Source of the DNA: Candidatus Brocadia sp.
GTDB taxonomy: Bacteria > Planctomycetota > Brocadiia > Brocadiales > Brocadiaceae
Assembly (NCBI GenBank): GCA_021646415.1
Contig: SOEU01000017.1
Span: 1 to 64,000, forward strand
DNA length: 64,000 nt
Reading direction: 5' to 3'
Shown here in pieces: positions 280 through 35,836 of this stretch. Below the pieces are notes generated by a model, which was not told the origin of the DNA, searched no databases, and saw nothing but the letters and a program-made list of their open reading frames with translations. The position numbers and the translations under genes were made by a program. Numbering within the stretch: the stretch's first letter is position 1; each line of letters opens with the position of its first letter.

Positions 280-2607
280 TTATTTCTTCTCCACCGTAAT
301 CGCCCCTAATGGGCAGCACTTTTCAAATCCTGGTTTAATATCCCAGCCTGTCGCCTTTTCTGCAATAATCTTTGCCTTGTCCTCGACCACATCGATAACT
401 CCATTCGAGTTCTCAACACAGATTCCGCAACCCACACACCGCCTCTGGTCTATACCAACCGTAATATATTCACTATCTTTCTTTACATTTACCTGATCAA
501 GGTACTGAATATGTTCCTGATCTGAAATTACACCTGAATACGTCGGAGAATGTTTTTTTACCTGTTGCCGGCCTGCCCGGTCGTAACGGAATATTGACCG
601 CCCGCATCGGTCACAGGTATGTAATTCCTGCATCTTCTCTAAATAGTCCATTACCGTTTGTACTACCGTGGCATGGCTCCATGTCAGGGGAGAAACAGAA
701 ACAGGTTCTCCGGTAAATGGATTTATCTGCTCTGCCAGCACACCGGAGGGCAATGCACGGGACACGGTCCATCTGAGATAATTCACTACACGTTCGAGAT
801 CTTCAACAGACTTGGCAGTTGATACATAGTATTGTGCCAACCACATGGTACAGATTATCCACGGATTTCCCGGAATCGTGTCATCATTTCCGACACGCTG
901 GTATTGGTCATATTCATAACGAGCAATGCCACCTATTTTGGTCCTGACCCATAAGGCCTCTTCGATTGCTTTCATCGTATTTTGTATCTTGATGTCATTG
1001 GCGTCATACACATTAAAGGCAAACATCCCATATAAGCTGGCATCAATTGTAGCATCGATTTCGTATTCTCCGTCTTTTCCCGGATAGATCATGCGCAAAA
1101 ATCTCTTGTGTTTCTCGCTGTAAAGATGTTGATCGATTGCCTTTTTAATCTGTGTCGCAGTCTGTCTGTATAATAGTGCCTTTTCGGTATGATAAAATAT
1201 GTCAGAAAGGTTTGCAGCGGCCATTAGTCCGCCATATACGGTGGCCGTTGTAAAGGATAGTATACCACGCCTTTCTTCCCACAGGTCATAGGAGGGAAGT
1301 GGCAGCCCCGTCTGTTCATCCCGATAACTCACAAGAAAATCTGCTGCCTTTTCGATAAAGGAATGATAGAGGGGACGTATCACCTCAATCTTTCTGTACA
1401 GGTCATAGTATTGCCATATTGTCCAGAGAATCAAGGCCGTTTCATCTTCCTGGATCGGTACATGGATCTCTTCACCCTTTACCCAGGGGTGCCAGGAGCT
1501 GCCAAAAGAACCATCTGGATTGTATTTATGCAATAAAAATCCATCTTCCACCATAACGCTTGCACAGAAATTGTAGGGTGTGATTACATTTGCGCAAAAG
1601 TTAAAAAAATTTCGGCATGTGGTAGTATAACCCGCCTTCATCAGTGCATAGGATACCAGCGCACCATCTCTTGGCCACATATAACTATAGGTATCCTTTG
1701 CATATTGCCGAATGTCCGAATCGTTTGCAGCGATAATGGCGCCGCCACTATCGATCTGCGTCATAAGGATCAGCAGGCTCCTCTTGAAAAGATCAACCAC
1801 ATCGGTTGGAAGGTTTCCAAAGTTGAATTCTTCTTTGTTTACCCAATGGTGCCAATAACTTGCCGTCCTGTTCAATATCTTTTGTGGTTTTTCCCTTAAA
1901 ATAATGTCATTCAGATCATTAATCTCTCCGTAATTCCTGCCTGCAGCAATCCAATAATAAACAACAGACTCTCCAAGAGGTGGAATTTTTAATGAAATAC
2001 CGATTGTAGAGTCTACGGACCCCTGTGCTATGGGGTTTCCACCCAGAATGCCATCTTCGGCATCACGCCATGTCCCCTCGGCACCCCGATGCCTTTTAAT
2101 CCCTGTTGCGTATTCTCTTACACCCCACACATCTCCAGCAGAACAGTTTATTAAGAAATACCGGGGTCCTTTGTAGTGGATGAGACAATTCAGCTTTGCA
2201 TCATAAAATACCGTGTCACCAACCTCATTCTCCATTACACTCAGGTCTTGATGGAAAAAAAGCCGGACGTCTCTTTCTTTGTTTTTTAGATTCAGAATCG
2301 TTACCTTGCGCATATAGATATTCTTCTCGAAATCTACAACATCGTTGCAGGCAAGCTGGATGCCCAGATTTTCATGAAACGCCCGGACGTTGGTTACGAG
2401 GGTTTCTTTCTGATATCCTAAGGCAAGCTTCCAATCCCGTGCATTGACCCACGAATACCCTTCATGTGTCCATACACCGAATCTGCTTGGATTTCCCAGT
2501 GCATGATTTTCCTTTCCCACACGTGGGTAATAGAGATCTCGAATGGTGTAGTCAGCATCAAATGCAACCAATAATGAACCGTTACCAACGGGAATATCTC
2601 TGGGCAC
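280..2607 (-). CDS. GH15 glycosidase (glucoamylase/trehalase-like) fused to a C-terminal ferredoxin
   Basis: The first ~650 residues match the cytosolic GH15 family: an N-terminal beta-sandwich, then the alpha/alpha barrel with YMWPRDGALVSYALMKAGY near residue 310, LWEERRG near 442 and a late SPLTWSHATVV near 642. A lone CDRCG motif follows near 665. The last ~60 residues are a ferredoxin with CVGCGIC near 722 and CCPLGAI near 761, enough for one iron-sulfur cluster. GH15 enzymes hydrolyse alpha-glucosidic bonds in glucans or trehalose; the ferredoxin has no known role in that chemistry. There is no signal peptide, so it is probably cytoplasmic. ATG start, single gene. The substrate and the purpose of the redox tail are unknown; the domain calls are firm. 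Confidence 0.88.
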   Translation of the reverse strand: MPRDIPVGNGSLLVAFDADYTIRDLYYPRVGKENHALGNPSRFGVWTHEGYSWVNARDWKLALGYQKETLVTNVRAFHENLGIQLACNDVVDFEKNIYMRKVTILNLKNKERDVRLFFHQDLSVMENEVGDTVFYDAKLNCLIHYKGPRYFLINCSAGDVWGVREYATGIKRHRGAEGTWRDAEDGILGGNPIAQGSVDSTIGISLKIPPLGESVVYYWIAAGRNYGEINDLNDIILREKPQKILNRTASYWHHWVNKEEFNFGNLPTDVVDLFKRSLLILMTQIDSGGAIIAANDSDIRQYAKDTYSYMWPRDGALVSYALMKAGYTTTCRNFFNFCANVITPYNFCASVMVEDGFLLHKYNPDGSFGSSWHPWVKGEEIHVPIQEDETALILWTIWQYYDLYRKIEVIRPLYHSFIEKAADFLVSYRDEQTGLPLPSYDLWEERRGILSFTTATVYGGLMAAANLSDIFYHTEKALLYRQTATQIKKAIDQHLYSEKHKRFLRMIYPGKDGEYEIDATIDASLYGMFAFNVYDANDIKIQNTMKAIEEALWVRTKIGGIARYEYDQYQRVGNDDTIPGNPWIICTMWLAQYYVSTAKSVEDLERVVNYLRWTVSRALPSGVLAEQINPFTGEPVSVSPLTWSHATVVQTVMDYLEKMQELHTCDRCGRSIFRYDRAGRQQVKKHSPTYSGVISDQEHIQYLDQVNVKKDSEYITVGIDQRRCVGCGICVENSNGVIDVVEDKAKIIAEKATGWDIKPGFEKCCPLGAITVEKK

Positions 2608-2808: not shown

Positions 2809-3552
2809 TTATTCCACTTTCCAGCCTTCCTCACCAATTAAAGGTACAAAGGCGCACTCCAAAATATTCCGGCTTTCTACTCCGTTTTTCGTTTTCACGA
2901 CTTGGTGTAATACCTGATTATACGGATTCCCGATGGGTATTATCAGTCGCCCACCAATTTCAAGCTGATCTAATAAACACTCTGGGACATGAGGCGCACA
3001 GGCCGTGACAATGATCCCATGGAAAGGTGCCTTGTCTGGTAACCCCAGACTTCCATCTCCTACAATTACCTTTATAGTATCATATCCTACCTGTTTTAGA
3101 ATAGTTTTTGCTCTTAACGCTAGTGCTGCATGTCGTTCAATTGTGTAAATGTGGCTTGCCAATCTGCTCAGTATTGCAGCCTGATAGCCTGAACCAGTTC
3201 CTATTTCTAGTACCTTCTCTTTCCCTTTTAATTCAAGACATTGCGTCATGATGGCTACCATATAGGGTTGTGAGATGGTCTGTCCTTCTCCGATGGGTAA
3301 AGGATAATCCTCATACGAAGCGTGTCTATATAATTCGGGCACAAACAAATGTCTGGGCACTTCAGACATTGCCTTTATCACCCGCTCATCCTGAATACCA
3401 CGGTTTACGAGCTGGTATTGTACCATCTGAAACCTGTCTGCAGCATACGTATCGGTATCTTGTGAAGGATTCAAAATACACCTTTCCAAAACATTATTTG
3501 TTAACACGACTGATACGATACCTGTGAGGTTCAACCACGTATGATTTGCCAA
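2809..3552 (-). CDS. pcm: Protein-L-isoaspartate O-methyltransferase
   Basis: This enzyme uses S-adenosylmethionine to methylate isoaspartyl residues in aged proteins so they can be repaired. The family signatures are present: LVNRGIQDERVIKAM, VPRHLFVPE, LPIGEGQTISQPYMVA and the SAM-binding VLEIGTGSGYQAAIL, followed by the family C-terminus ending in FVPLIGEEGW. The longest frame starts at a TTG (3552) with a poor ribosome-binding site and adds ~40 non-conserved residues. An ATG at 3426 begins MVQYQL, close to where short homologues begin, but the preceding AADRF also resembles longer homologues. The start is therefore uncertain; the function is secure. Confidence 0.92.
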   Translation of the reverse strand: MANHTWLNLTGIVSVVLTNNVLERCILNPSQDTDTYAADRFQMVQYQLVNRGIQDERVIKAMSEVPRHLFVPELYRHASYEDYPLPIGEGQTISQPYMVAIMTQCLELKGKEKVLEIGTGSGYQAAILSRLASHIYTIERHAALALRAKTILKQVGYDTIKVIVGDGSLGLPDKAPFHGIIVTACAPHVPECLLDQLEIGGRLIIPIGNPYNQVLHQVVKTKNGVESRNILECAFVPLIGEEGWKVE

Positions 3553-14537: not shown

Positions 14538-15572
14538 TCATGATTCCTGCTTTAATTCCTGCTGTATCGGCAGTTTCAGGTCCTGGACATCAGGAAGTTT
14601 TCCTTTGAACGCCTTGGGCAGTCTCTTTGTGAGGTAATATTCGGCCACCCCTATTGGTTTTTTGACACTGCGCAACGCATACTCAACTACTATGTTATCT
14701 TTATCCGCGCATAAAATAATGCCTACGGATGGATTCTCATCTTTCATCTTCACCTGTTCATCCAAAAGATGCAGATAAAAATCCATCTTCCCCGCGTATT
14801 CGGGTTCAAACCTGCCGGTTTTAAGTTCAAGCGCCACAAGACATTTAAGTTTTCGGTTGTAAAACAAGAGATCGATAAAATATTCATTATTACCCAATGT
14901 CAGGCGGTACTGATTGCCGATAAACGAAAATCCAAACCCAAGTTCTAATATGAATTGCTTTATTTTCTCCACAAGCCTCTTTTCCAGTTCTCGTTCCAAA
15001 ACCGGCTTTGTGATGCCAAGAAAACCCAAGCAGTAAGCGCTCTTTATGGTTTCATCCGCCTGCTCGGCAAGATGCACGGACAGGGTTTTTGGAAAATTAT
15101 GTATTTTATGTTTCAGGCTAAGTGGGTAAGCACCGGCTTTTATCTGGTTGAGAAGCACATTCCTTGACCAACCAAAATCACGAGACGATCTGATATAATA
15201 TTCCCGTTCTTTATCATCGGTCAATTTCTCCATAATCAATAAATTATGTCCCCAGGGTATTTCTGCAACAAGCTGTTGCAGAAATGGCTTATCTTTATAT
15301 TCCTCGTAAAATCTGCGCATATTCCAGAGGTTTCTTCCTGAAAAACCAACTGATTCCGGAAATGCCTCTCTCAAATCACGGGCAAGAGCTTCAACAATAT
15401 TGTCGCCCCACGTATATTTTTTCTGCCTCTCTACAATTGCTTTGCCGATATCCCAGTATAATTTTATCAGCTTTTTATTAACCGACCGAACGGTCTGTAT
15501 CCGCGCCGTAGCGATACGCGTTTTAATCTCGTTCAAGAAATTGAGATACTCTTTGCTTATAACGGTTTTCAT
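14538..15572 (-). CDS. DUF1016/YhcG-type PD-(D/E)XK nuclease-domain protein (copy 1)
   Basis: 344 residues. The N-terminal DUF1016_N helical domain includes LIKLYWDIGKAIVERQKK and SVGFSGRNLWNMRRFYEEY; the C-terminal PD-(D/E)XK fold has the core ...FIDLLFYNRKLKCLVALELK followed by GRFEPEYAGKMDFYL. The family lies in defence islands and is predicted to cut or bind DNA; its precise task is unproven. Copy 1 is ~35% alike to copies 2 and 3 by eye and is a different subgroup (IPWGHN where the others have WTHY). The segment just before IPWGHN is encoded by a 27-bp palindrome (15259-15285). Complete. Confidence 0.9.
   Translation of the reverse strand: MKTVISKEYLNFLNEIKTRIATARIQTVRSVNKKLIKLYWDIGKAIVERQKKYTWGDNIVEALARDLREAFPESVGFSGRNLWNMRRFYEEYKDKPFLQQLVAEIPWGHNLLIMEKLTDDKEREYYIRSSRDFGWSRNVLLNQIKAGAYPLSLKHKIHNFPKTLSVHLAEQADETIKSAYCLGFLGITKPVLERELEKRLVEKIKQFILELGFGFSFIGNQYRLTLGNNEYFIDLLFYNRKLKCLVALELKTGRFEPEYAGKMDFYLHLLDEQVKMKDENPSVGIILCADKDNIVVEYALRSVKKPIGVAEYYLTKRLPKAFKGKLPDVQDLKLPIQQELKQES
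15259..15285. repeat. Palindrome inside DUF1016 copy 1
   Basis: Perfect 12-bp arms ATTTCTGCAACA and TGTTGCAGAAAT are separated by AGC. It encodes part of FLQQLVAE just before the conserved IPWGHN motif, the same structural point at which copies 2 and 3 carry different palindromes. Confidence 0.8.
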
Positions 15573-15596
15573 TCCAATCTCCCAATCTTTCCGGCT

Positions 15597-15749
15597 TTAA
15601 TCTTTTTTGAGTAACGACTCGGCGGAATTCTCGCCGGAGATTAAATCCTTGCGCCACTGTTCAGTCTGCTTGCCTTCAAACCCATCCGCCTGTTTTTCAT
15701 TAAGCTGCCGGAGGAGTTCAATGATGTCTTCGATTGAGAAAGGTTTCAT
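15597..15749 (-). CDS. Small 50-residue protein between two DUF1016 genes
   Basis: An ATG frame encoding MKPFSIEDIIELLRQLNEKQ... and ending in SLLKKD. The ATG overlaps the stop of the short frame upstream (ATGA), and GGAGAGGAAG precedes it. The opening resembles the leader helix of some AlbA_2/ATP-binding regulator proteins, so this could be the remnant of a larger gene, or an intact small partner of the nuclease. I cannot decide between these. Confidence 0.45.
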   Translation of the reverse strand: MKPFSIEDIIELLRQLNEKQADGFEGKQTEQWRKDLISGENSAESLLKKD

Positions 15750-15838
15750 GTGATATCTTCCTCTCCCAACACCTCTGCAATAATTCTTTCAATACACCTT
15801 TCCGCCTCTTGCCACAGGAAACGCACGACTTCTATTTT

Positions 15839-16786
15839 TTATGAAATATCCTTTTTCAGCTTGAATTCCATCTCAACAAGCTCCTTCTCGCGGAGCAACT
15901 CGGCCTTTAGCTCATCTTCGGTGGGCAGGTAGGGGACGTATTTAGAGACAAATATCTGTTTCTGCCCTTCAGGAAGCGTGAATTTCACTATGGCATCATT
16001 TTTTCGGGCACAGAGAAGTATCCCGATTGGCTCGTTTTCGCCCTCAAGCATCTGCACACTTCTGTAATAATTTACGTACATCTGCATCTGTCCGATGTCT
16101 TGATGCGTCAACTTCCCAACCTTGAGGTCTATGAGAACAAAACTGCGGGTCAGTCTGTTGTAAAAGACAAGATCAATATAGAAATGATCACCGTCAAGAG
16201 TGATGCGCTGTTGCCGTGCCACAAACGAAAAACCCTTGCCAAGTTCAAGCAGAAATGTCTGGAGGTGGTTAATAAGTGCCTGTTCAAGGTCTTTTCCGGG
16301 ATATTGCTCCCGTTTTTCCAGGCCGAGGAATTCAAGCACGTATGGGTCTTTTACAAGGTCGGAAGTCCTGTTTATCTCGTGTCCCTTTTTCGCAAGTTCG
16401 AGCACACCTTTTTTGTTCCTGCTCAATGCAAGGCGCTCGAAGAGCAGGGAGTTTATCTGCCGCTCAAGCTCTCTTGTGCTCCAGTTGCTGTTAATCGCCT
16501 CGTTTATATAAAACTCTCGTGTCTCCGGTTTTTCTATCTTCAATAAAAGTCTGTAATGTGTCCAGGTCAATTCTCCACGCAGTGCGTGGAGATTCTGGAA
16601 GGAAAGGTAAAATTGCCTCATATACCAAAGATTAGTTTTGTTAAACCCCTGACCGTATTCAATTGTCAGTCTTTTAGAAAGCTCTTCAATAAGTGCCGTG
16701 CCATATTCGGCTCTCTGCTTACCTTGCTGCTCCCCTTTCACAATGACTTTTTCAATATGCCAGTAAGCCTGCACCATTGCCGCCAA
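15839..16786 (-). CDS. DUF1016/YhcG-type nuclease-domain protein (copy 2), 5'-shortened
   Basis: 315 residues. MVQAYWHIEKVIVKGEQQGK onward matches the DUF1016_N domain, NLWYMRQFYLSF precedes LTWTHYRLLLKIEKPE, and the C-terminal nuclease core reads HFYIDLVFYNRLTRSFVLIDLK, then GKLTHQDIGQMQMYV. Compared with copy 3 the N-terminus is ~40-60 residues short; the only in-frame start is a TTG four codons before the MVQAYWH block, and the frame is open but lacks a start further upstream. So it is either 5'-truncated or inactive. A 21-bp palindrome (16572-16592) encodes NLHALRGE just before LTWTHY. Confidence 0.85.
   Translation of the reverse strand: MAAMVQAYWHIEKVIVKGEQQGKQRAEYGTALIEELSKRLTIEYGQGFNKTNLWYMRQFYLSFQNLHALRGELTWTHYRLLLKIEKPETREFYINEAINSNWSTRELERQINSLLFERLALSRNKKGVLELAKKGHEINRTSDLVKDPYVLEFLGLEKREQYPGKDLEQALINHLQTFLLELGKGFSFVARQQRITLDGDHFYIDLVFYNRLTRSFVLIDLKVGKLTHQDIGQMQMYVNYYRSVQMLEGENEPIGILLCARKNDAIVKFTLPEGQKQIFVSKYVPYLPTEDELKAELLREKELVEMEFKLKKDIS
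16572..16592. repeat. Palindrome inside DUF1016 copy 2
   Basis: Arms TCTCCACGCA and TGCGTGGAGA flank a single G. The core ACGCAGTGCGT is shared with the three palindromes in copy 3 (25450-25546), but the outer bases differ, so each palindrome is a distinct sequence around the same core. Confidence 0.8.
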
Positions 16787-16848
16787 GTCTGAAACAAGTT
16801 TTTGTAAAAGTGCCGCTGACCCTATTTGGTGTTTTTGGTATTTATTCC

Positions 16849-17154
16849 CTAAGCAACAAGCTTTTCAATATATCCTTCCCGTTTACTCCATACAATCGGT
16901 TCGATTTCATAGGTCTTTAAGGCGTGTATAGCGTCAGGAGTAATTTCTTTGTCCTGGTCATTGAGTACAGCTATTGCAATCGAATTTTCTGATCGTATTT
17001 TTCTGGCATCGTCCCAGGAAAAAATCATAGCAGAAACGTTATTTTTTGTGGGATGATTAATTGCCCTCAAAATCCTTTCTGGTTCTTTTTTTACTTTTTC
17101 TTTAAGCCAGTGTGCATAGGTTTCTACAAGCTGATCGCAATCCAAAACGCTCAT
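16849..17154 (-). CDS. Hypothetical protein, 101 residues
   Basis: Not recognised. It begins MSVLDCDQLVETYAHWLKEK, has a central MIFSWDDARKIRSEN and ends in PIVWSKREGYIEKL. No membrane segment or signal peptide. ATG start with a weak ribosome-binding site. A frameshifted second copy lies at 14187-14449. Each copy sits upstream-adjacent to a nuclease or toxin gene in the same orientation, so it may be an accessory partner of the DUF1016 or toxin loci; that is inference from position only. Confidence 0.6.
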   Translation of the reverse strand: MSVLDCDQLVETYAHWLKEKVKKEPERILRAINHPTKNNVSAMIFSWDDARKIRSENSIAIAVLNDQDKEITPDAIHALKTYEIEPIVWSKREGYIEKLVA

Positions 17155-17162
17155 ATGAGAAA

Positions 17163-17462
17163 TTATTCATTCATTAGTCTGTCTGCCCAATATCGTGGTT
17201 CCCGATGCAAATGTGCAATCGCAATAATAACAATTGTATCGTTATCAACACCGTAAATAATTCCATATGGGAACCTTGAAAGTAAGCAGCGTCTGAGACC
17301 AGGTTCAATCTCCGGAGATGAAAGGGGATAAGCAACTATCCTTCTGACAGTCCGATCCAGATCGTCCAGAAACTGAGTTCCAGGCCCGATAGAGCGGGAA
17401 TCGTACCCTGCAACGGCATCGTCAAGCTCACGTTGAGCAGGTTTTAGAAAGCGGATTTTCAT
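17163..17462 (-). CDS. ParE/RelE-family toxin
   Basis: 99 residues with the RelE/ParE fold pattern: MKIRFLKPAQRELDDAVAGY at the N-terminus, a helix with FLDDLDRTVRRIVAYPLSSP, then RRCLLSRFPYGIIYGVDN and IIAIAHLHREPRYWADR. ParE-type toxins poison gyrase, RelE types cut mRNA; HREPRYW is more often seen in ParE-like members. It overlaps the upstream antitoxin by four bases. Complete and apparently intact, unlike most toxin genes nearby. Confidence 0.88.
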   Translation of the reverse strand: MKIRFLKPAQRELDDAVAGYDSRSIGPGTQFLDDLDRTVRRIVAYPLSSPEIEPGLRRCLLSRFPYGIIYGVDNDTIVIIAIAHLHREPRYWADRLMNE

Positions 17463-17680
17463 CTGGTGCGATACTTTTCCATTACCTGTTCATAAGATAC
17501 TGTTTCTAATTTGCCTGCCTTGTATGCCTGCCAGCGTTTTCGTGCCTCTCTCGCCCATACACGATCAATATCCGGGTCTGGTTTATCCAGTTGCATAAGA
17601 ATTGAATCAACGAGTTCGAGCTTTTCAATATCCGACAAAGCTTGAATATTTTCCATCAGTTTATTTTTAATGGTTGCCAT
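17459..17680 (-). CDS. Addiction-module antitoxin (TIGR02574-like)
   Basis: 73 residues with the pattern of the putative addiction-module component family: an N-terminal helix ending in LSDIEKLELVDSILMQLD, then WAREARKRWQAYKAG and a C-terminal VSYEQVMEKYR that would wrap the toxin. Its stop overlaps the ParE-like toxin start by four bases. The ATG start is plausible; AGAGAGG lies upstream. Confidence 0.85.
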   Translation of the reverse strand: MATIKNKLMENIQALSDIEKLELVDSILMQLDKPDPDIDRVWAREARKRWQAYKAGKLETVSYEQVMEKYRTR

Positions 17681-17811
17681 AATCTTATTTCCTCTCTCGT
17701 ATGAATATCAAAATACCTTCCATGAGAATCAACCTTCATGAAATCATAGCGATATTAAATTTTTTATAGCATTGAACAGCGCACAAATGAGGGTATTTAC
17801 CAATCATCTGT

Positions 17812-17872
17812 AACACCTTAGCTCTGTCATTTTACCTATTTAATTTTTTTAAATGACACAGCTAAGGTGTTG
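17812..17872. terminator. Long inverted repeat downstream of the AlbA_2 gene
   Basis: AACACCTTAGCTCTGTCATTT at 17812-17832 is mirrored by AAATGACACAGCTAAGGTGTT at 17851-17871 with one mismatch, around an AT-rich loop. It starts a few bases past the stop at 17877 and could end transcription or be the remnant of an element end. A partial echo, TGTAACACATAGCTTTATCA, lies inside the gene end at 17899-17918. Confidence 0.6.
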
Positions 17873-17876
17873 TTTA

Positions 17877-19133
17877 TCAATGATTTTCGTTCTTATCTGT
17901 AACACATAGCTTTATCATTATAATCATTGTTTCGTTAGAAATACGTTCCAAATATTTTACAAACTTTTTATCCCTGACAACCGCATCAATTACTAGCTTT
18001 ACGCAAAAATCTGTTGATCCGTTATAATCCGGAATTCCCTTACCTTCTCTGATGGTTTGCTTGAAAATTTTATCCACGCCCGGTCCCGATCTTTCGACAA
18101 AACCTATTTTTTGCAATACCTCAATGATCAGCCTATTTCTCGGTTTGCTGGCAACCTCAATAATATTTACAGGTGTTATTCCTGGCAAGAATCCGCCCGG
18201 GCTAATGATTTCAATTTTCGTTGGATATTGCTTGATGAAGGATGAACCCTGGTTCTTATAGTCTCGATGGCTAATAGCGTTTAATACGGCTTCCCTTATA
18301 ACTTCTTCATTAAATGCCTTGATATCGAATACAAATAAGCCTTCCTGAATGGGGTATATTTCATTTCGACTATTTATCTTATCCCAGAGTTTGTCAAAAT
18401 AAAGCAAGAAGGGTTCTCGAAAATCTACTCTATCCTGATATTCAATTGAAGAAATATCCTTCCGATATTCCCAAATGATTTCGGCATTTCTCAAATAACG
18501 ATTAATTATTTCTTTTTTACCTGTTAGAATTATAGTGGCATAAGTTACTAAACTATCCACAATCAACCCTAAATCGATAAGTGCCTGTCGGTCTTCTAAA
18601 CGTAAAATATCCGGATTACCTGATTTTTTACACCATAGTTCTTTTAACCGTTTTATCGCGTCTTTATCTAAATCTTCAAATTTAACACCATTACATACTT
18701 CAGCAGAAAAATCATCTTCGTATTCATTAAATATCTTCTTCAATGTTTGAGAATCCATCGGTACCAAACTTTGTCCGCTACGCATAAAGTATGCACCATT
18801 AAAAGCAATTGCCTCTCCCTTTGGGCGAGTAGGCACAGCAATAATAAGAACTCTTCTTCCATCCTGTTCAAGTTCCTCGACATCGATTCTAACCTTACGA
18901 CTTACCTTTTGAGAATTTAAAACGTCGATCTTTAATTTTTCAATGTCGTTAAATACAGCAGTACCAACAATCTGTCTCTGATTGTTAACACCAAGAACAA
19001 GTTTGCCACCACCTTCATTGGACAAAGCGCATACATACTTAAGCAAATCCTCAAAGTGAAAATTGTTTTGTACGCTTTTAAATTCGATATGTTCGTTTTC
19101 TTTGCTTTGCAAAAGCTTTTGAAGATTAGTCAT
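17877..19133 (-). CDS. AlbA_2/Schlafen-type ATP-binding protein (putative transcriptional regulator)
   Basis: 418 residues from the ATG at 19133 (MTNLQKLLQSKENEHIEFKS), where the family begins; the frame extends to 19223 but through a non-conserved leader. The N-terminal AlbA_2 domain (EHIEFKS, ALSNEGGGKLVLGVNN, FMRSGQSLVPM) is followed by the HATPase-like C-terminal part with EVIREAVLNAISHRDY, ISPGGFLPG and RNRLIIEVLQKIGFVERSGPG. Such proteins are common in defence islands. The C-terminus after FVKYLERISNE is shorter than usual and ends inside repeat-like sequence, so it may be clipped. Last gene after the type III restriction cluster. Confidence 0.85.
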   Translation of the reverse strand: MTNLQKLLQSKENEHIEFKSVQNNFHFEDLLKYVCALSNEGGGKLVLGVNNQRQIVGTAVFNDIEKLKIDVLNSQKVSRKVRIDVEELEQDGRRVLIIAVPTRPKGEAIAFNGAYFMRSGQSLVPMDSQTLKKIFNEYEDDFSAEVCNGVKFEDLDKDAIKRLKELWCKKSGNPDILRLEDRQALIDLGLIVDSLVTYATIILTGKKEIINRYLRNAEIIWEYRKDISSIEYQDRVDFREPFLLYFDKLWDKINSRNEIYPIQEGLFVFDIKAFNEEVIREAVLNAISHRDYKNQGSSFIKQYPTKIEIISPGGFLPGITPVNIIEVASKPRNRLIIEVLQKIGFVERSGPGVDKIFKQTIREGKGIPDYNGSTDFCVKLVIDAVVRDKKFVKYLERISNETMIIMIKLCVTDKNENH

Positions 19134-19246
19134 AACTGATAAATTTTTCTCCCCAAATATCGGCAATAATACGCTCGATGCACCTTTATGCCTCTTGGCG
19201 CAAGAGGCACACACACCTTTCAATGCTGTCGTACATGCGACAGTTA

Positions 19247-21817
19247 TTATCTACCATTTGCCATAGCGTTACTCAACGCTACATCAAGTTCCGAGCGGAA
19301 CCCGACGAGATCATTATTTTGTAATTTCTGGAAATACTTGTTGTAATCTTTGGGGGTCAAAAAATTGAACTGGTAACGAATATTGAGTTTCTCATGTTCC
19401 AACCATTTATTAAGGCGCTCAAAATGCGCAAGCGCATATTCATTCTTCTTGATATTCTCAGGAGAAGGGTCTGCTATCTCTTCATCGACCTTGATTTCAA
19501 CGACAAAAATCATGTCTCCTTTTTTTAGAAAAAAATCCGGGCTAAACTCTCCACGCTTTGGATGTTCGCCTTTCTTCCATGCGTATTCTATAGGGTAAAA
19601 CCTCTGAGGCGTATTTTTAATATAAGCATCTATTGCTTGGGCATTCTCTCTTTCGCAAAGCAGTCGGACGAACTTGCGTTCAGGCTTGGCATCTGCAATA
19701 ACCAGATTCAGAGGCGTCTTAAAATCATGTGAGTTTTCTATGGCTTCACGACCACCCCTGAAATCGCCATCCGGGTCTAAAACCTCTCTAAAAAATTCGA
19801 CCTGATCATCCGGAACAGAGGCTTCGCTATCAGGTCCAAAGAAAATAGTCTTATCACCCCTCCTGAGTTCTGCCGCACTGCAACTTTCGGGATGACGCTC
19901 TTTTGTATTTATGGTGATAAGGGCCTTTGAATTGAGTTTGTAAATCACACGTTTTGCCTTTTTCCGTTTCAGTGTACCAAGCGCCTGTAAGAATTTTTGC
20001 TTATTAGCTTCAGTGATTCGCCCTGTTCTAATCTTTGACCTTTTCAAAGATTCCTTGACTATCTGCTCCAAACGCTCTAAAGGGAACTTCTTTGTATAGT
20101 TGGTTCTGTCATGGGGGTCTTCAGCATCCTTTGATTCTTCATCAATGGATTGGAGTCTTCTGTACATCTGCTCTGCAACTTCTTCAATACTGTAAGTCTT
20201 ATGCTCAATCCGGGTTTTGAATTTGTTATGCTCCCCGGACACAGCACGTTCAAAATCAATGGTAACATCCTCCGCCTCTACCTGAGTGGGCAAATCTACA
20301 AAGCCACCTTCCAGTAAACGGTATTCTCCTTTTTTCGTATATTCACTCATGTCTTCATCACGATCGTAATTGAGATTATGAATATCAAAATGATACGGGG
20401 AAGATACTATTACATCAGAAGACAAACGGCGCTCTATTTCCAATATTTCATTAACCAGATGCCTTATCCTGCCGGACCATGCATCATGATTAAAAACCGT
20501 TACTATCGGCTGTTCACCTTTCCAGCCGTCAGGAACTCTGAGACCCCGGCCAAGCACCTGAGCTATAAGGAGTTTACTGTTAAATGCCCTTTCCTCATGA
20601 GGCACAATCAAGAAGACATTTTTTACATCCCAGCCTTCGCTGAGCATAGATACAGAAGCAATCCATTCAACCTTACTTGCAGGGCTATCAACAACCCTTA
20701 GTTTTGCAACATTTGGCTGGTGCTCTTTGGCAGAAGTTACGGCTAACACTTTATTTTCCGCATCTTCTGGCGAAATACCTTCCCAATCCTGCAGGAATCC
20801 TTGCAGCTCCTCGGCAACCCGCTTACAGTCTGAGATTCCCTTTGTTACTATAATGGAGAGCGGCTTAATACCATATTTTTTTAATCTTCTTTTCCAATCC
20901 TTATGCCGGTTATGGATAAGCTGCCATTTTTCTTCCGCGTCATCTGTTTCAGGCATCTCAGCCACATATTCAACCTTTTTTACAAAACGGTCTTCAATGG
21001 CCTGCCGCAATGAATACCGGCTGACCACATCGGCAAAATATTCATCGCCGACATAGCAAGTGCCGGATACGCCAACTAAAATCCTAAATCCGTATTCAGG
21101 ATTAAGCAAAAACTCCTTCCATCTCTTTGCCTTAGCGCCGGTCTCATTTGCAACATGATGTGCCTCATCGCTGAAAACAGCAACCCGTTCACCCTTTCCT
21201 ATAAGACTGTCACGGATTGATGACTTTACATGCTCAAGGATTGCATGATAATTCTCCACGCATATTGAACTGTCAACAATAGTTTCAGAGGCGTTTATTA
21301 TCTTTGGTGATTGTACTTTTACTCCGTTCGGCAATACATCCCGCAGATCGGAATTGCCGGCAAGTTCACGGAACTTTTCAAGCAAACCCGCTTCTATCGT
21401 ATTCGATGGGCAACGAATGAGTACTCTATCCACCTCGCCTTCCGCAAGCAATATCGCAGCAAGTCCATACAGCACATAGCTCTTGCCGGTTCCGGTAGCA
21501 AGGTCTATTGAGCAGGACAGTTGATCCGGCAACTGCAGATGCCGCTCCATGCCTGCCCATGAGCCGTAACGCTGCTGAATCTCATCATTGCTTTCAAAAT
21601 TCTCCTTTGCAAGTTCACGAAGGTTCGCATATTTGCTGCCAAGAAGATACCTCAACGTTGTTCGGATGGCTTCTTTCTGATATTCCCGCATCCCGCAAAG
21701 TTCATCAAGGAATGCTTCGTATTTAGTCTCATCCCATACAGTGGGATCAATATTCGTTGAGACCTTAAGGACAAGGTCTTCATTTTTGAAGGTTTTCCGG
21801 TCGCCGCGCGTGGTCAT
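19247..21817 (-). CDS. Type III restriction enzyme, Res subunit (SF2 helicase-nuclease)
   Basis: 856 residues. SF2 ATPase motifs: ATGTGKSYVLYG near 103, DEAHHVANE near 215, SEGWDVKNV, and motif VI QVLGRGLRVP near 419. A C-terminal PD-(D/E)XK site reads SPDFF...MIFVVEIK near 761-780. Res needs the partner Mod for target recognition and cuts DNA after ATP-driven signalling between sites. Here res is intact but the adjoining mod gene, two bases upstream, contains an in-frame stop, so the complex may be inactive. ATG start. Confidence 0.93.
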   Translation of the reverse strand: MTTRGDRKTFKNEDLVLKVSTNIDPTVWDETKYEAFLDELCGMREYQKEAIRTTLRYLLGSKYANLRELAKENFESNDEIQQRYGSWAGMERHLQLPDQLSCSIDLATGTGKSYVLYGLAAILLAEGEVDRVLIRCPSNTIEAGLLEKFRELAGNSDLRDVLPNGVKVQSPKIINASETIVDSSICVENYHAILEHVKSSIRDSLIGKGERVAVFSDEAHHVANETGAKAKRWKEFLLNPEYGFRILVGVSGTCYVGDEYFADVVSRYSLRQAIEDRFVKKVEYVAEMPETDDAEEKWQLIHNRHKDWKRRLKKYGIKPLSIIVTKGISDCKRVAEELQGFLQDWEGISPEDAENKVLAVTSAKEHQPNVAKLRVVDSPASKVEWIASVSMLSEGWDVKNVFLIVPHEERAFNSKLLIAQVLGRGLRVPDGWKGEQPIVTVFNHDAWSGRIRHLVNEILEIERRLSSDVIVSSPYHFDIHNLNYDRDEDMSEYTKKGEYRLLEGGFVDLPTQVEAEDVTIDFERAVSGEHNKFKTRIEHKTYSIEEVAEQMYRRLQSIDEESKDAEDPHDRTNYTKKFPLERLEQIVKESLKRSKIRTGRITEANKQKFLQALGTLKRKKAKRVIYKLNSKALITINTKERHPESCSAAELRRGDKTIFFGPDSEASVPDDQVEFFREVLDPDGDFRGGREAIENSHDFKTPLNLVIADAKPERKFVRLLCERENAQAIDAYIKNTPQRFYPIEYAWKKGEHPKRGEFSPDFFLKKGDMIFVVEIKVDEEIADPSPENIKKNEYALAHFERLNKWLEHEKLNIRYQFNFLTPKDYNKYFQKLQNNDLVGFRSELDVALSNAMANGR

Positions 21818-21819
21818 GC

Positions 21820-23163
21820 TTACTGTTTCCCCTTTTTTTTCTTTGGCGAAGTAATTCCGAACTGCTCTGGCTCAATAACAACCCGCGCCTCATTGCCATA
21901 AATATCAATAAAGACCGCCATTATCTTTTTGCCTATCGAATCAATGGGAAAGGTAAGCGCCCATCCAGCTTTTTCAAGCGCATCGGCATAAAAGACGGCA
22001 TCAAGGTCAAAGACCTGTGAATTATCATCAAAGTCGTAATCCAGCATAGCCATTGAAAGTGTCTCCAGATTTCCTTTTTTGCGCATAGGCTCTCTGACAA
22101 CCGCTTCACTCTTGAAGGTCTTGATTTTAATATATGCCGTATCCTGAGATTCACCTTTTCCTTTTCTTACGCCACACTCAAACTTTAATTCCGGTGTCCT
22201 GATGAAATCAAAGCCGACAGCTTCAACCGTATCATTGACCGCCATTTCATCCGAAGGCTGTTTCAGGCAGGTAAACTCCCGCTGATGAAGCTCGTTAATA
22301 ATAGAATACGGTATTCGTAAGGCATAATAACGAACACTGCCTAATGTTATGTAGTCTTGCTGAAAGTCAAATGTCAAAGCAGGTGCTATGATGAAAAGCC
22401 TATTGCCGATACGCGTGCCAAGCGCTTCATGAAGGCTCTCTATTGTTTCTTCATCAATTCTCACACCCTTCTCCTTCATGTGATTAAAGATGAGGACACT
22501 TGCGCTTTTCAGATAGCCGTCAAGCCTAATGCCACCAATAGTATGAGGCTCATCTCGGCATTGGAAAAGCTGTAGGGCAAAAAACCTCCACGAATCCCAT
22601 GAAAGTTCTTTCAGCTTTGAAAAGTCATAAAGACCAGCATTATAGAGGGTAAATGGCTTGCATTGCTTGCCATATTTCTTTCTGGGATTTTCTAAATCCA
22701 TACTTTCAGTAATATTCAAAAGACGTTTCTGCATTGTATAAATTGCCAACTTGCCGCAGTCCACACCAATCCAGCGTCTGCCGAGTTTTTCAGCAATGGC
22801 AAGTGTAGTCCCTGAACCTGCAAAACAGTCAAGGACAATATCGCCTAGTTCCGTTCCAGCCTCAATAATCAAAGATAGCAGATCCTCAGGTTTTTCTGTT
22901 GGGTATTCAGTGATTTTTGTTTGCGTAATTACATCGCTATTCCACACATCGCCTCTCGAAACATATTTAGCATCCGGTGATGTAATCTTCTTTAATACCT
23001 CTTCTTTTGTTTCTGTTGGGTTATCGCTAACATAGGTTTTTTTCCCTATACCTGCATCTACTTCCCACTGAGCAGGCTGTCGTCCCATGCGACCACGAGT
23101 ATAGTACCAACCATTTGAATCTTTCTCTATTCCTTTGACCGTTGAAAGTTTGTACGGACCCAA
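21820..23163 (-). pseudogene. Type III DNA methyltransferase (Mod), C-terminal half after an in-frame TGA
   Basis: This stretch continues the mod reading frame without any shift after the TGA at 23179-23181; the first available start is a TTG at 23163. It carries the SAM-binding motif DCFAGSGTTLAIAEKLGR (motif I) needed by beta-class methyltransferases, then the C-terminal region of the Mod family ending in a lysine-rich tail (SPKKKKGKQ). Without the N-terminal half it lacks the catalytic DPPF motif, so alone it cannot methylate. Two bases separate it from res. Confidence 0.85.
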
Positions 23164-23178
23164 GAGCGGTTTCCAAAG

Positions 23179-23847
23179 TCATTCAGACCTCTGTCGTGCG
23201 TAGATAAGAAGATTTTGATATTCAGTCGGTATGGCAGAGCCAGACGCATGTGACCGTGAACTTCCTCCCTCTCTTCCCTTATGCCAAATAATTTCGTTAA
23301 TAAAGTTTTCCTCACCAAAAACTTCATCGCAGACAACTTTTATGTAATGCATCTTTCGGGGGTCGAGATGAATTACTATATTTCCATTTATAGACAAAAG
23401 ATCACGAAGCATAACCAACCGACGCCGAATGAATTCAACAAATCGCGCACCAGCCACCTTGTCTTGATATGCCTTCTGATCCTGGCTTCCTTTGAATTCC
23501 TGCTTCGTTGCAAACGGTGGATCAATATAAATGAGTCTCACGCCGGGCGTGCCGTCTGCGTTGCATAGCCTTCCGACCTTTTTCATCTCCAAGAGTGATT
23601 TCATTACCTGAAGGTTATCGCCGAAGATGAGCATATTAGACCAGTCACCGTTACTTCCAAAAGTCCGCACAGGCTGCAAAGGCACGGCCAGCGTATTGGC
23701 AAGGATGTCTTCTTCCCGTTCCTTGCCGTAATAGACAAGCTCGTATTCCCGTTTCTCTGGAGGGAAAAGGATTCTTACCCATTCTGGAGAAAGTTCCTCA
23801 CCCTTTTCAAGTAATCTGATGATTTCCTGCCGCTGCTCAGGCGTCAT
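23179..23847 (-). CDS. Type III DNA methyltransferase (Mod), N-terminal half truncated by TGA
   Basis: The first 222 codons of a beta-class N6-adenine/N4-cytosine methyltransferase: EYELVYYGKEREEDILANTL, SNMLIFGDNLQVMKSL, then motif IV LIYIDPPFATKQEF near 105 and the INGNIVIHLDPRKMHYIK segment. The frame stops at TGA (23179) after YARQRSE and continues in the same frame with LWKPLLGPYKL. One base change would restore a ~675-residue enzyme, the normal Mod length. No SECIS-like stem is evident after the TGA. The start overlaps radC by four bases. Confidence 0.85.
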   Translation of the reverse strand: MTPEQRQEIIRLLEKGEELSPEWVRILFPPEKREYELVYYGKEREEDILANTLAVPLQPVRTFGSNGDWSNMLIFGDNLQVMKSLLEMKKVGRLCNADGTPGVRLIYIDPPFATKQEFKGSQDQKAYQDKVAGARFVEFIRRRLVMLRDLLSINGNIVIHLDPRKMHYIKVVCDEVFGEENFINEIIWHKGREGGSSRSHASGSAIPTEYQNLLIYARQRSE

Positions 23848-24620
23848 AATGACGACTCCTTAATTTTCATTTGTTTTCTTTTTGCCGGATACGGAGAAAA
23901 AGATTCCAGTTCCAGTTCGTCAAGCAGCCCGCTATCTGCAAAGCTGTACGTTGTTTCTTCTCCAACAATAATGTGATCCAATATCTTCATGCCAAGCGGC
24001 CGTGTAGCTGAAATTATATCACGGGTCAGTATTATATCTGATTCGCTCGGATCAATTGCCCCGGAAGGATGGTTATGCGCTGCTATCAGACTGCTTGCAT
24101 TTGTCCGCAGGGCATGGGTAATTATGTTCCTTACAGGTGGTTTGACACCATCAACATCACCTTGCGCAATAAGCACATCATCAAGCAGACGATTTTGACG
24201 ATTCAGATAAAGAATCCTAAAATACTCATCGGGTAAACCTCTTAACCGCTCCTTCACATATTCACCTGCCTGCGCAGTGCCTTTTATCTGAATGCGTTTC
24301 TTGCCATCCGGCAGAGAAACACGCCTTGCAATTTCCATTGCTGCCGCCAGTTGAGCGGCCTTTGCACCCTTTAAACCCTTAACATCGAGCATCGCAGATA
24401 ACGGCGCCTCTGCCATTGCCCGCAATGAGCCAAATTGTTTCATAAGGTTGCGACCCAATTCAACAGCATTAGTCCCCTGAAACCCAACTCTAACCAGGAT
24501 CGCAATCAATTCTGCATCGGTCAATGAGTGCGGTCCTCTGCTTAGCAATCGTTCTCTTGGCCGCTCCTCAACAGGCCACGAAACAATACCTTTTGACTTC
24601 CCCTTAGTTTGATTTCTCAT
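23844..24620 (-). CDS. radC: RadC/JAB-domain DNA repair-like protein
   Basis: 258 residues. A helix-hairpin-helix part (SLTDAELIAILVRVGFQG, AMLDVKGLKGAKAAQL) precedes the MPN/JAMM metallohydrolase core with H-x-H-P-S-G...D-P-S-x-x-D: AHNHPSGAIDPSESD near 182. All metal ligands are present. RadC's cellular role is not settled and it is often carried in mobile and defence islands, as here between a DUF1016 gene and mod. ATG start; the stop overlaps mod by four bases. Its upstream leader repeats the leader of the DUF1016 gene before it. Confidence 0.93.
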   Translation of the reverse strand: MRNQTKGKSKGIVSWPVEERPRERLLSRGPHSLTDAELIAILVRVGFQGTNAVELGRNLMKQFGSLRAMAEAPLSAMLDVKGLKGAKAAQLAAAMEIARRVSLPDGKKRIQIKGTAQAGEYVKERLRGLPDEYFRILYLNRQNRLLDDVLIAQGDVDGVKPPVRNIITHALRTNASSLIAAHNHPSGAIDPSESDIILTRDIISATRPLGMKILDHIIVGEETTYSFADSGLLDELELESFSPYPAKRKQMKIKESSL

Positions 24621-24637
24621 AACTCTTAATAATTATT

Positions 24638-24666
24638 AAATCCGTATCCGTCTCCTCGTTGGTTCC
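24638..24666. repeat. Direct repeat, left copy (29 bp)
   Basis: AAATCCGTATCCGTCTCCTC plus nine further bases, repeated at 25836-25864 with 27 of 29 matches. The two copies bracket the third DUF1016 gene and each includes the GAGGAGAC ribosome-binding-like box on the minus strand. Confidence 0.8.
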
Positions 24667-24685
24667 GGGTGTTTATCTGAATACC

Positions 24686-25900
24686 TTATTTCTTGCCTTT
24701 TGATTTTGACAGCTTAAGCTCTATTTCAAGCATTCTTTTTTCACGCTCTAACTCCTCTTTCAACTCTTTTTCAGTAGGCAGGTATAGCTTGTACTTTGAG
24801 GCAAAGATCGTCTTGCTGTCTTTTAGCAGAGTATATTTTGCCATTGCCTCGTTCTTCTGAGCGCAAAGTATCAGTCCAATGGTAGGATTATCCTCGGGCT
24901 GTCTGATCTCTTTCTCAAAGTACCGCACATAAAAGTCCATCTGCCCGATGTCCTGATGCGTCAGCTTACCGACTTTCAGGTCAATTATAACAAAACACTT
25001 CAATATGTAATTGTAAAAAACAAGGTCAATATAATAGTATTCGTCTTCAACGGTTATCCTTTTCTGGCGGGCGATAAAAGAAAAACCCTTGCCAAGTTCG
25101 AGAAGGAAGTTATGAAGCTTATCAATCAGACCATGCTCAAGGTCGGTCTCAAGATATTTTTTGCTTTCCTTCATACCAAGGAATTCGAGGACATAGGGAT
25201 CTTTGATGATGTCGTTTGGTGACGGTCCCGGTTCAAGTTTTTTTATCTCTGATCTGACAATGTTTTTGTTACGGCTTGAAAGAAGACGTTCGTAATAGAA
25301 GGAATTTATCTGCCGCTCAAGCTGACGGGTAGACCAGTTGCCTGTTATGCATTCATCCACATAGAACTTTCTTACATCAGGCCGTTCAACCTTCAGAAGC
25401 AAACGATAGTGCGTCCATGAAAGTTCCGGGCGGACTACTGGCAACTCGTCACGCAGTGCGTGGCTTTTTTGCGCATGTGAAGATATGTGACGCACTGCGT
25501 CATATATCTCTATGGCTGAAGATTGTGAACGCACTGCGTTCACAATTTCAAAGGAAAGATAAAACAGGCGCATATAACGAAGGTTGCTCGGATCAAAGCC
25601 CTTACCAAACTCTTTGGCAAGACGCTCCGACAGCTCCTTTAAAAGATATTCTCCATATTGTGCCCTTGCTTTGCCTTTCTGTTCTTCCTCGACAATCTCT
25701 CTGCCGATATGCCAGTATGCCTGAACCATAGCAAAATTCACAGCGCGATAAGCGCTACCTCTTGCAGCCTCAAGAATCTCCCTGACACGGCTATAAATTG
25801 ATTCAACTGTTTTTGTGTCTTCTAATTGTTTTTTCAAATCCGTATCTGTCTCCTCGTTTGTTCCATAACAAATTAATAAACAAAGGTTGTTATTCTTCAA
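24686..25900 (-). CDS. DUF1016/YhcG-type nuclease-domain protein (copy 3)
   Basis: Up to 404 residues; the conserved part starts at SIYSRVREILEAARGSAYRA then MVQAYWHIGREIVEEEQKGK. LRYMRLFYLSFEIVNAV is followed by a ~40-residue insertion absent from copy 2 (built of xAVR/xALR units), then LSWTHYRLLLKVERPDV and the nuclease core YYYIDLVFYNYILKCFVIIDLK plus GKLTHQDIGQMDFYV. The longest frame begins at a TTG (25900); a TTG at 25837 with GAGGAG ten bases upstream is a better start. The gene is bracketed by 29-bp direct repeats. Full length and apparently intact. Confidence 0.9.
   Translation of the reverse strand: MKNNNLCLLICYGTNEETDTDLKKQLEDTKTVESIYSRVREILEAARGSAYRAVNFAMVQAYWHIGREIVEEEQKGKARAQYGEYLLKELSERLAKEFGKGFDPSNLRYMRLFYLSFEIVNAVRSQSSAIEIYDAVRHISSHAQKSHALRDELPVVRPELSWTHYRLLLKVERPDVRKFYVDECITGNWSTRQLERQINSFYYERLLSSRNKNIVRSEIKKLEPGPSPNDIIKDPYVLEFLGMKESKKYLETDLEHGLIDKLHNFLLELGKGFSFIARQKRITVEDEYYYIDLVFYNYILKCFVIIDLKVGKLTHQDIGQMDFYVRYFEKEIRQPEDNPTIGLILCAQKNEAMAKYTLLKDSKTIFASKYKLYLPTEKELKEELEREKRMLEIELKLSKSKGKK
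25450..25546. repeat. Three palindromes inside DUF1016 copy 3
   Basis: 25450-25462 has the core CACGCAGTGCGTG; 25488-25502 is TGACGCACTGCGTCA; 25522-25546 has 12-bp arms ATTGTGAACGCA and TGCGTTCACAAT around a C. All share an ACGCA-S-TGCGT core but differ outside it. They encode the variable ALR/AVR insertion just before LSWTHY, keeping the frame open. Confidence 0.85.
25836..25864. repeat. Direct repeat, right copy (29 bp)
   Basis: Matches 24638-24666 at 27 of 29 positions (differences: C to T and G to T). On the minus strand it supplies the GAGGAGACAGATACGGATTTG leader and likely start region of DUF1016 copy 3, just as the other copy forms the leader of radC. Confidence 0.8.
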
Positions 25901-34733: not shown

Positions 34734-35396
34734 TTATGATACATAATGCCTGGATAGTTTATCATCAGCATCTTGTCGGGTAAACTTCCATTCGATCTTG
34801 GTCTTAGTTTGATTACGGCGATGCTGCCAGGCGGCTACTTCGGATCTCAGTATCGCTTCGCTGGGCAGTCTGCCTCCGATGCACTGTCTATCCATAACTC
34901 CTATTTCAATTTCTGCCATATTCAACCAGCTGGCGTGTTTCGGTGTGTAGTGAAACTCCACCCTCGCCAACATCCGTTCCGCACGCTCGACACCCAAGAC
35001 CTCCTCAAAACTCTTGCGGAAATGAGTGTTCAGATTGTCCATCACCAGATGAATCTTCTGTGCTCCGGCATAGACCTTTTCTACCAATTGGCCTATGAAC
35101 CGAACAAAATCAGGCTTGGTGCGACGGGCTGTCACCTTCGCTTGGCGGTGTCCTCCCTTTGGCTCGACTGCCAGGAAGATGTTGCGCGTTCCGGTGCGCC
35201 GGTATTCGTAATCCTCCTTCGTTGGCGCACCCGGCCTGACCACAATCGGTGTCCGGGTCTGTTGTAAAAGCTGTTTGCTTTTCTCGTCCACACAGATCAC
35301 CGGTTCCTCTTCCCGATAGGGCCGTGCATAAAGCTCCAACAGATCATACATCCTTTGTCGATACTCCGCGGTGATTTTGCCAATACACCACATCAA
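34734..35396 (-). CDS. IS630 transposase, catalytic DDE part (OrfB)
   Basis: 220 residues with the IS630/Tc1-like DDE core: VICVDEKSKQ (first Asp), HLVMDNLNTHFRK (second Asp) and HASWLNMAEIEIGVMDRQ (Glu). It ends RHYVS inside the left terminal repeat. The real product is probably made by -1 frameshifting from OrfA at eight A (35419-35426 on the plus strand as T), which would give ...FLKKNDCKPWRKLMWCIGK. All three acidic residues are present, so the element may still be active. Confidence 0.92.
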   Translation of the reverse strand: MMWCIGKITAEYRQRMYDLLELYARPYREEEPVICVDEKSKQLLQQTRTPIVVRPGAPTKEDYEYRRTGTRNIFLAVEPKGGHRQAKVTARRTKPDFVRFIGQLVEKVYAGAQKIHLVMDNLNTHFRKSFEEVLGVERAERMLARVEFHYTPKHASWLNMAEIEIGVMDRQCIGGRLPSEAILRSEVAAWQHRRNQTKTKIEWKFTRQDADDKLSRHYVS

Positions 35397-35836
35397 CTTG
35401 CGCCAGGGCTTGCAGTCGTTTTTTTTAGAAATCGGCGAATGCTTTCACGGCTGATATTTTTCAGATTGGGACGCCGACGCGCTGCCTTGGTAAGCAACCG
35501 GATCGTCCAACGCTTTGCACCCTTCGGAGGCTTACTACATGCCAAAGCTACAACTTCGGCTTGCTGATCAGTTCCGTATTGCCGTGGTTGCCCAGGACGA
35601 GCCACATCATACACAGCATAATCCAACCCCTTCTCTACATAAGCCGAACGCGTGCGCCAAATGGCGGTGCGTCCAACACCCAGAACCTGCATGATGAGCG
35701 ATTCAGGCACTTTTTCATCTAATGCTAATAAAATGTGCGCCCGGTTGATTTCCCTGGCCATGTGCTGCCCCTTCGAACGAAAGGCCTTCAGTTCCGCCTT
35801 ATCCTCTTCGGTAAGATGTATTTCGGTTTGTCTCAT
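35393..35836 (-). CDS. IS630 transposase, N-terminal helix-turn-helix part (OrfA)
   Basis: 147 residues: LTEEDKAELKAFRSKGQHMA, then a winged helix-turn-helix (RAHILLALDEKVPESLIMQV, VGRTAIWRTRSAYVEKGLDY) and the SVRRFLKK-like end (SRESIRRFLKK). DNA-binding half that recognises the terminal repeats. It overlaps OrfB by four bases (ATGA) and carries the slippery A-run just before its own end. Confidence 0.9.
   Translation of the reverse strand: MRQTEIHLTEEDKAELKAFRSKGQHMAREINRAHILLALDEKVPESLIMQVLGVGRTAIWRTRSAYVEKGLDYAVYDVARPGQPRQYGTDQQAEVVALACSKPPKGAKRWTIRLLTKAARRRPNLKNISRESIRRFLKKTTASPGAS

Follow-up and report, generated by a model that had tools for sequence, protein, structure and literature searches.

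In the 64,000-nucleotide stretch of Candidatus Brocadia sp. DNA analyzed here (contig SOEU01000017.1, positions 1 to 64,000; hereafter the window), a gene on the reverse strand at positions 280–2607 encodes a GH15 domain, a CxxC knuckle, a linker, and, at the C-terminus, a ferredoxin-type domain of the single-cluster kind (CxxCxxC...CCP), in that order and in a single uninterrupted open reading frame of 775 amino acids with a GTG start codon and no internal stop. We tentatively read its product as a cytoplasmic GH15 alpha-glucosidase whose [4Fe-4S] tail would have a regulatory role, tuning the use of carbohydrate reserves to redox/NO state. Anammox bacteria, which store glycogen and have NO among their intermediates, remove much of the fixed nitrogen of the ocean and of wastewater. 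To our knowledge, GH15 chemistry works without redox cofactors, and a selected iron-sulfur domain on a GH15 enzyme points for that reason to polysaccharide breakdown being controlled in a new way.

Results

The fused protein retains a GH15 catalytic domain with both catalytic glutamates

All parts of the gene are given in window coordinates on the reverse strand. Residues 1–270 (1798–2607) form the N-terminal part of the GH15-type protein, which is kept in all GH15 homologues, and residues 271–655 (643–1797) form the catalytic domain. Pfam Glyco_hydro_15 (PF00723) matched residues 279–651 with 103.4 bits, above its cut-off of 22, and the oligosaccharide-amylase model TIGR01577 matched residues 12–656 over the whole model length with 335.6 bits, below its curated cut-off of 820.7. 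Profile alignment to the glucoamylase 1lf6 placed E444 (WEE; 1276–1278) on position 438 and E626 (AEQ; 730–732) on position 636, which we take to be the catalytic acid and base of that solved enzyme. Both residues, the predicted general acid and general base of the fused protein, are invariant among close orthologues (A2). From what is established for the family, we infer that the protein hydrolyzes alpha-glucans exo-wise to glucose, as an enzyme of the glucoamylase or oligosaccharide-amylase type that probably frees glucose from storage glucan or maltodextrin. The archaeal GH15 trehalases TreH1 and TreH2 were rejected as assignments, scoring 88.3 bits versus a cut-off of 820 and 82.7 bits versus 1000, respectively. 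The N-terminus, read directly from the sequence, has no hydrophobic signal-like stretch, suggesting that the fused enzyme is likely cytoplasmic.

The tail is a conserved, predicted single-cluster ferredoxin-type domain

After residue 655 the protein continues with CDRCGRSIF (C665, C668), the linker, and then VGIDQRRCVGCGIC...EKCCPLGAITV. The knuckle segment (CxxCGRSIF, residues 656–685; 553–642) and the linker (residues 686–709; 481–552) precede the ferredoxin-type domain (residues 710–775; 283–480), in which CVGCGIC (418–438) holds the first three predicted cluster ligands (C724, C727, C730) and the CC of CCP (313–318) holds the predicted fourth ligand, C765, and an extra cysteine, C764. None of the seven tail cysteines varies among the 28 aligned fused sequences, a set in which two pairs are probably the same species. 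Fer4_15 scored 23.0 bits on the trimmed tail (cut-off 22.4) versus 14.9 bits, under the cut-off, on the whole protein, and individual tails score close to Pfam cut-offs. A profile built from 14 tails matched the ferredoxin chain 1rof/1vjw (E=3.4e-6), covering the entire 58-residue fold, and the ferredoxin 2z8q (E=1.4e-5) across the whole fold. Together with the unbroken reading frame and the GH15 score, this match bears out the first-pass annotation, which had described a GH15 domain running without a break into a CxxCxxC...CP ferredoxin. AlphaFold2 models were too poor for use (pLDDT 35.7 for the full protein from 7 sequences and 41.5 for the tail from 6 sequences).

Established knowledge of this ferredoxin family indicates that the tail very probably binds a [4Fe-4S] cluster on C724, C727, C730, and C765, and that one cluster (three CxxCxxC cysteines plus the cysteine before the proline) rather than two is to be expected. 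Nei-Gojobori dN/dS values, which are medians over unsaturated pairs and approximate, were ~0.06 in the catalytic domain and ~0.07 in the CxxC segment, with ~0.41 in the linker and ~0.19 in the ferredoxin domain, a pattern indicating two folded, selected domains joined by a loose linker.

The fusion is widespread in the Brocadiaceae

We found the complete fusion in 26 of 33 genomes of Candidatus Brocadiaceae (anammox), at 75–93% identity to the window's protein and with Brocadia carolinensis and Jettenia ecosi among the named carriers, as well as in one genome from another family of the order (G381, 76% identity). The fused tail is present in a 27th family genome, G308, where a contig end cuts the N-terminus; locus L093 also has the tail and a cut N-terminus. 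G297 shows just the final 42 residues, next to the kinase gene described below and where a contig ends, and G301 only a fragment; the G302 protein is identical to Brocadia carolinensis L065 across the aligned GH15 part. The homologues are thus not two separate genes, and the same joint in 26 intact genomes answers the concern, raised when the domain pair was first pointed out as worth searching for, that the fusion might be an assembly error near 600–660.

A profile search of 392 genomes gave no match covering both halves outside Brocadiales, and the plasmids searched held no tail homologue, only GH15 parts of related enzymes; rarer fusions may exist in other phyla. Three candidate fusions from outside the order were rejected: L068 and L069 are ordinary multi-cluster proteins of the ferredoxin type, and the GH15 of L067 nests inside Brocadiaceae and lacks the ferredoxin. 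The L067 contig (JACQQJ010000004.1), titled Nitrospinota, is Brocadiaceae-like with a GH15/kinase pair and is probably mis-binned or mislabelled.

The CxxC knuckle is older than the ferredoxin domain

The fused proteins make up a single clade of the GH15 tree, within which only two ferredoxin-less species stand out, L067 and L092/L075 (L092 and L075 being one gene); the GH15 proteins of other Planctomycetota, outside this clade, end soon past the catalytic domain without a ferredoxin. On this tree, one gain followed by one or two losses would be the most economical explanation. The pair of ferredoxin-less orthologues share 80% identity, keep the CxxC, and then run into an overlapping kinase start. 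L075 ends in ...GKKHEDQA* and the fused L011 in ...EKKHEDQT*, a likeness in the final codons that a deletion of the intervening segment would be expected to leave. A stand-alone single-cluster ferredoxin gene occurs in G122 (L107 1579–1767, Fer4_13 58.1 bits), and the fused tail may derive from a gene of this sort. In L006 (G258:C341:5258–5347), a partial duplication comprising the final 30 residues of the tail lies ~0.9 kb downstream, just ahead of the kinase.

Most of the same genomes carry a second GH15 copy, paralogue B, with ~53% identity over the GH15 part and no ferredoxin. It ends in CxxCG in 12 of the 13 copies read (exception, L033), and CxxCG is also present in L020. The CxxC knuckle is therefore older than the ferredoxin, and of the earlier description of a ferredoxin "plus an extra CxxC" the CxxC itself stands (C665, C668), although it was not added to the ferredoxin: the ferredoxin-less paralogue has it too. 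Neighbors of paralogue B include a glycogen debranching enzyme (L037), a 6-phosphogluconolactonase-family gene (L032, with similar starts in L041–L043), and a GMC oxidoreductase (L040, with a similar start in L044). An aldehyde dehydrogenase is also among the neighbors at these loci (L032, L037, L040–L044), and L032 has a ferritin-family gene nearby on the opposite strand. The data suggest that paralogue B has been lost from the window's genome. The first 59 residues of a further GH15 gene survive as a remnant at G000 C11:115611–115784.

The fusion often overlaps a heme-Cache kinase gene

In 13 fused species the stop codon of the fusion and the start of a hybrid histidine kinase gene overlap by 4–17 bases, an arrangement that is new here. 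The kinase (~805 amino acids) has a Tll0287-like domain (113.7 bits versus a cut-off of 24.1), HAMP, HisKA, and HATPase_c domains, and two REC domains, and it is followed by two response regulators wherever the flanking sequence reaches far enough. The CxxCH of the Tll0287-like domain is present in every kinase copy examined. The Tll0287/sCache_heme domain is reported to bind c-type heme and, in proteins where it is joined to signalling modules, to have NO-sensor rather than oxygen-sensor properties (2026 preprint, PMC12889525). NO is among the anammox intermediates (PMC7438415). The kinase with its two response regulators (L055 12220–15797 and equivalents; G000 C8:8061–10478) is a candidate anammox NO-sensing system.

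This arrangement varies among genomes. In L091 an 11-base gap separates fusion and kinase, and in several others the two are 0.8–2.6 kb apart. The kinase is not adjacent to the fusion in some genomes, nor in that of the window, where the fused gene lies at the start of its contig and the kinase is on contig C8, 8 kb from the contig's end and with an unrelated upstream region. Both ferredoxin-less orthologues keep hydrolase and kinase overlap, and G106 has the kinase without a GH15 gene.

Upstream of the fusion lie RtcB and PCMT genes or, at five loci, rubrerythrin. The window has a PCMT gene (protein-L-isoaspartate methyltransferase; 2809–3552, reverse strand; PF01135, 215 bits), which is a neighbor in several relatives and whose link to the fusion is uncertain. 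No conserved oxidoreductase or glucose-oxidizing gene was found beside the fused gene in the neighborhoods compared. Of 20 family genomes, 16 have glycogen synthase-type genes and all, the window's own included, have phosphorylase-type genes. Jettenia ecosi is reported to have pathways for both glycogen and trehalose and to lack secreted carbohydrate-active enzymes (PMC6828613).

Discussion

A possible link between redox/NO state and carbohydrate reserves

We propose that the state of the predicted cluster, whether reduced, oxidized, or damaged by NO or oxygen, would alter how active or stable the hydrolase is or how it binds partners, and the bacteria would use their carbohydrate reserves in step with redox/NO state. 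The fusion, the heme-Cache hybrid kinase, and the two response regulators form in many relatives an apparent operon, in which kinase and regulators would answer the same class of signal, and because the fusion often stands directly before the gene of a predicted NO-sensing kinase, breakdown of sugar stores may be tied to redox or NO state. That the predicted cluster adjusts, or reports on, the hydrolase in this way is the leading but tentative reading. Both catalytic glutamates, the ferredoxin-fold profile match, the invariant ligand cysteines, the constrained ferredoxin domain, and the loose linker support the overall reading, and the kinase overlap in 13 fused species and the rubrerythrin upstream at five loci add circumstantial weight to redox or NO sensing. 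The glucan reading agrees with the presence of glycogen synthase-type and phosphorylase-type genes and with the placement of paralogue B beside a debranching enzyme or a 6-phosphogluconolactonase-family gene. Against regulation stands the loss of the ferredoxin domain in L067 and L092/L075, where hydrolase and kinase overlap persist, indicating that the domain is dispensable there, along with the separate location of the kinase in the window's genome and some others and its occurrence without a GH15 gene in G106. The first-pass suggestion that the tail senses redox state gained circumstantial support from the overlapping kinase of NO-sensor type and, in some species, from the upstream rubrerythrin.

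A more specific form of this proposal, in which the predicted [4Fe-4S] domain gates glucan hydrolysis directly by NO/redox and forms with the co-encoded heme-Cache kinase a two-level link from the NO intermediate to the reserves, we consider rather unlikely. If true, hydrolase gating and kinase together would join the NO intermediate of anammox to the use of its carbohydrate reserve. The natural ferredoxin-less orthologues and paralogue B offer built-in controls for experiments.

Alternative roles for the tail

The main rival is a purely structural cluster that, with the CxxC knuckle, acts as a brace at the C-terminus or at an interface within an oligomer and whose redox state is irrelevant. 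This is consistent with a knuckle as conserved as the catalytic domain and with paralogue B, which without a ferredoxin ends in a similar CxxC plus HxH, resembling a metal-bound brace. A ferredoxin carried on a fast-evolving 24-residue linker (dN/dS ~0.41) would nevertheless be an odd brace, and two species have cleanly lost it while keeping the hydrolase, leaving a structural role somewhat unlikely.

Unlikely, too, is a module for electron transfer or docking, the latter also suggested in the first-pass annotation, which would tether the hydrolase to an oxidoreductase (e.g. a GMC-type glucose dehydrogenase or another ferredoxin-using enzyme), with glucose oxidized on site and its electrons passed to the fused ferredoxin. 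Although the tail profile matches the electron-carrier fold of the Thermotoga maritima type, and although paralogue B has a GMC oxidoreductase gene as its neighbor at L040 and L044 and a 6-phosphogluconolactonase-family gene elsewhere, no oxidoreductase gene is conserved next to the fused gene, and the GMC gene adjoins paralogue B and not the fusion. The earlier idea that glycogen breakdown is coupled directly to ferredoxin reduction is not supported: GH15 hydrolysis gives off no electrons, so that coupling would need a separate glucose-oxidizing enzyme, and none is conserved beside the fusion.

It is quite improbable that the tail is a degraded ferredoxin without a cluster, a neutral passenger of a past fusion. 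Its Pfam score under the threshold in the whole protein, the absence of the fourth "CxxxCP" cysteine, and the loss in two species would fit such decay, whereas the cysteines invariant in 28/28 sequences, a dN/dS of ~0.19, and a tail kept in 27 of 33 family genomes would not; the absent cysteine is, in single-cluster ferredoxins of the T. maritima type, a disulfide partner and no ligand. An assembly or gene-calling artifact merging two genes, for which we found nothing in favor, has virtually no probability left, since the identical joint in 26 independent family assemblies, several of them single-contig genomes, and the invariance of all seven tail cysteines exclude chance and assembly error.

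Relation to known systems

With GH15 oligosaccharide amylases and prokaryotic glucoamylases (TIGR01577, TIGR01535; 1lf6), the fused protein shares the catalytic domain, the two glutamates, and the layout of N-terminal part and catalytic domain, but it scores far under the TIGR01577 cut-off and has the C-terminal knuckle and ferredoxin domain. Paralogue B (L032–L044) resembles it in the whole GH15 part and the terminal CxxCG, and differs in lacking the ferredoxin and in lying near debranching, 6-phosphogluconolactonase-family, or GMC genes rather than the heme-Cache kinase. The tail has the CxxCxxC...CP pattern and domain length of single-cluster [4Fe-4S] ferredoxins (T. maritima 1vjw; Brocadia L107), yet it sits on a hydrolase, has no CxxxCP cysteine, reads CCP where those ferredoxins have xCP, and has diverged to near the Pfam cut-off. 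Plant thioredoxin-controlled beta-amylase would be alike in working principle only, if the cluster gates hydrolysis, and is a thiol switch in an unrelated enzyme family. The downstream kinase shares Tll0287-like, HAMP, HisKA, HATPase, and REC domains and the CxxCH with described Tll0287/sCache_heme sensor kinases (PMC12889525); unlike those, its gene overlaps a metabolic hydrolase gene, and its NO binding is putative. Stable NO binding is reported for another signalling-associated member. A literature search that left subscription journals mostly outside its reach found no precedent for a GH15, glucoamylase, or glycosyl hydrolase with a ferredoxin or iron-sulfur domain, which we word as no precedent found and not as none existing.

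Other features of the window

Elsewhere in the window, translations of positions 14538–25900 read as a defense-like stretch with DUF1016-type, ATP-binding/DNA-binding-like, type III restriction helicase-like, DNA methylase-like, and RadC-like proteins. Two adjacent, slightly overlapping open reading frames at 34734–35836 resemble an IS630-type transposase, and positions 44654–45652 encode a predicted lipoprotein-like protein with Pro/Glu/Val-rich repeats followed by about six CxxC...GHxC zinc-ribbon-like repeats.
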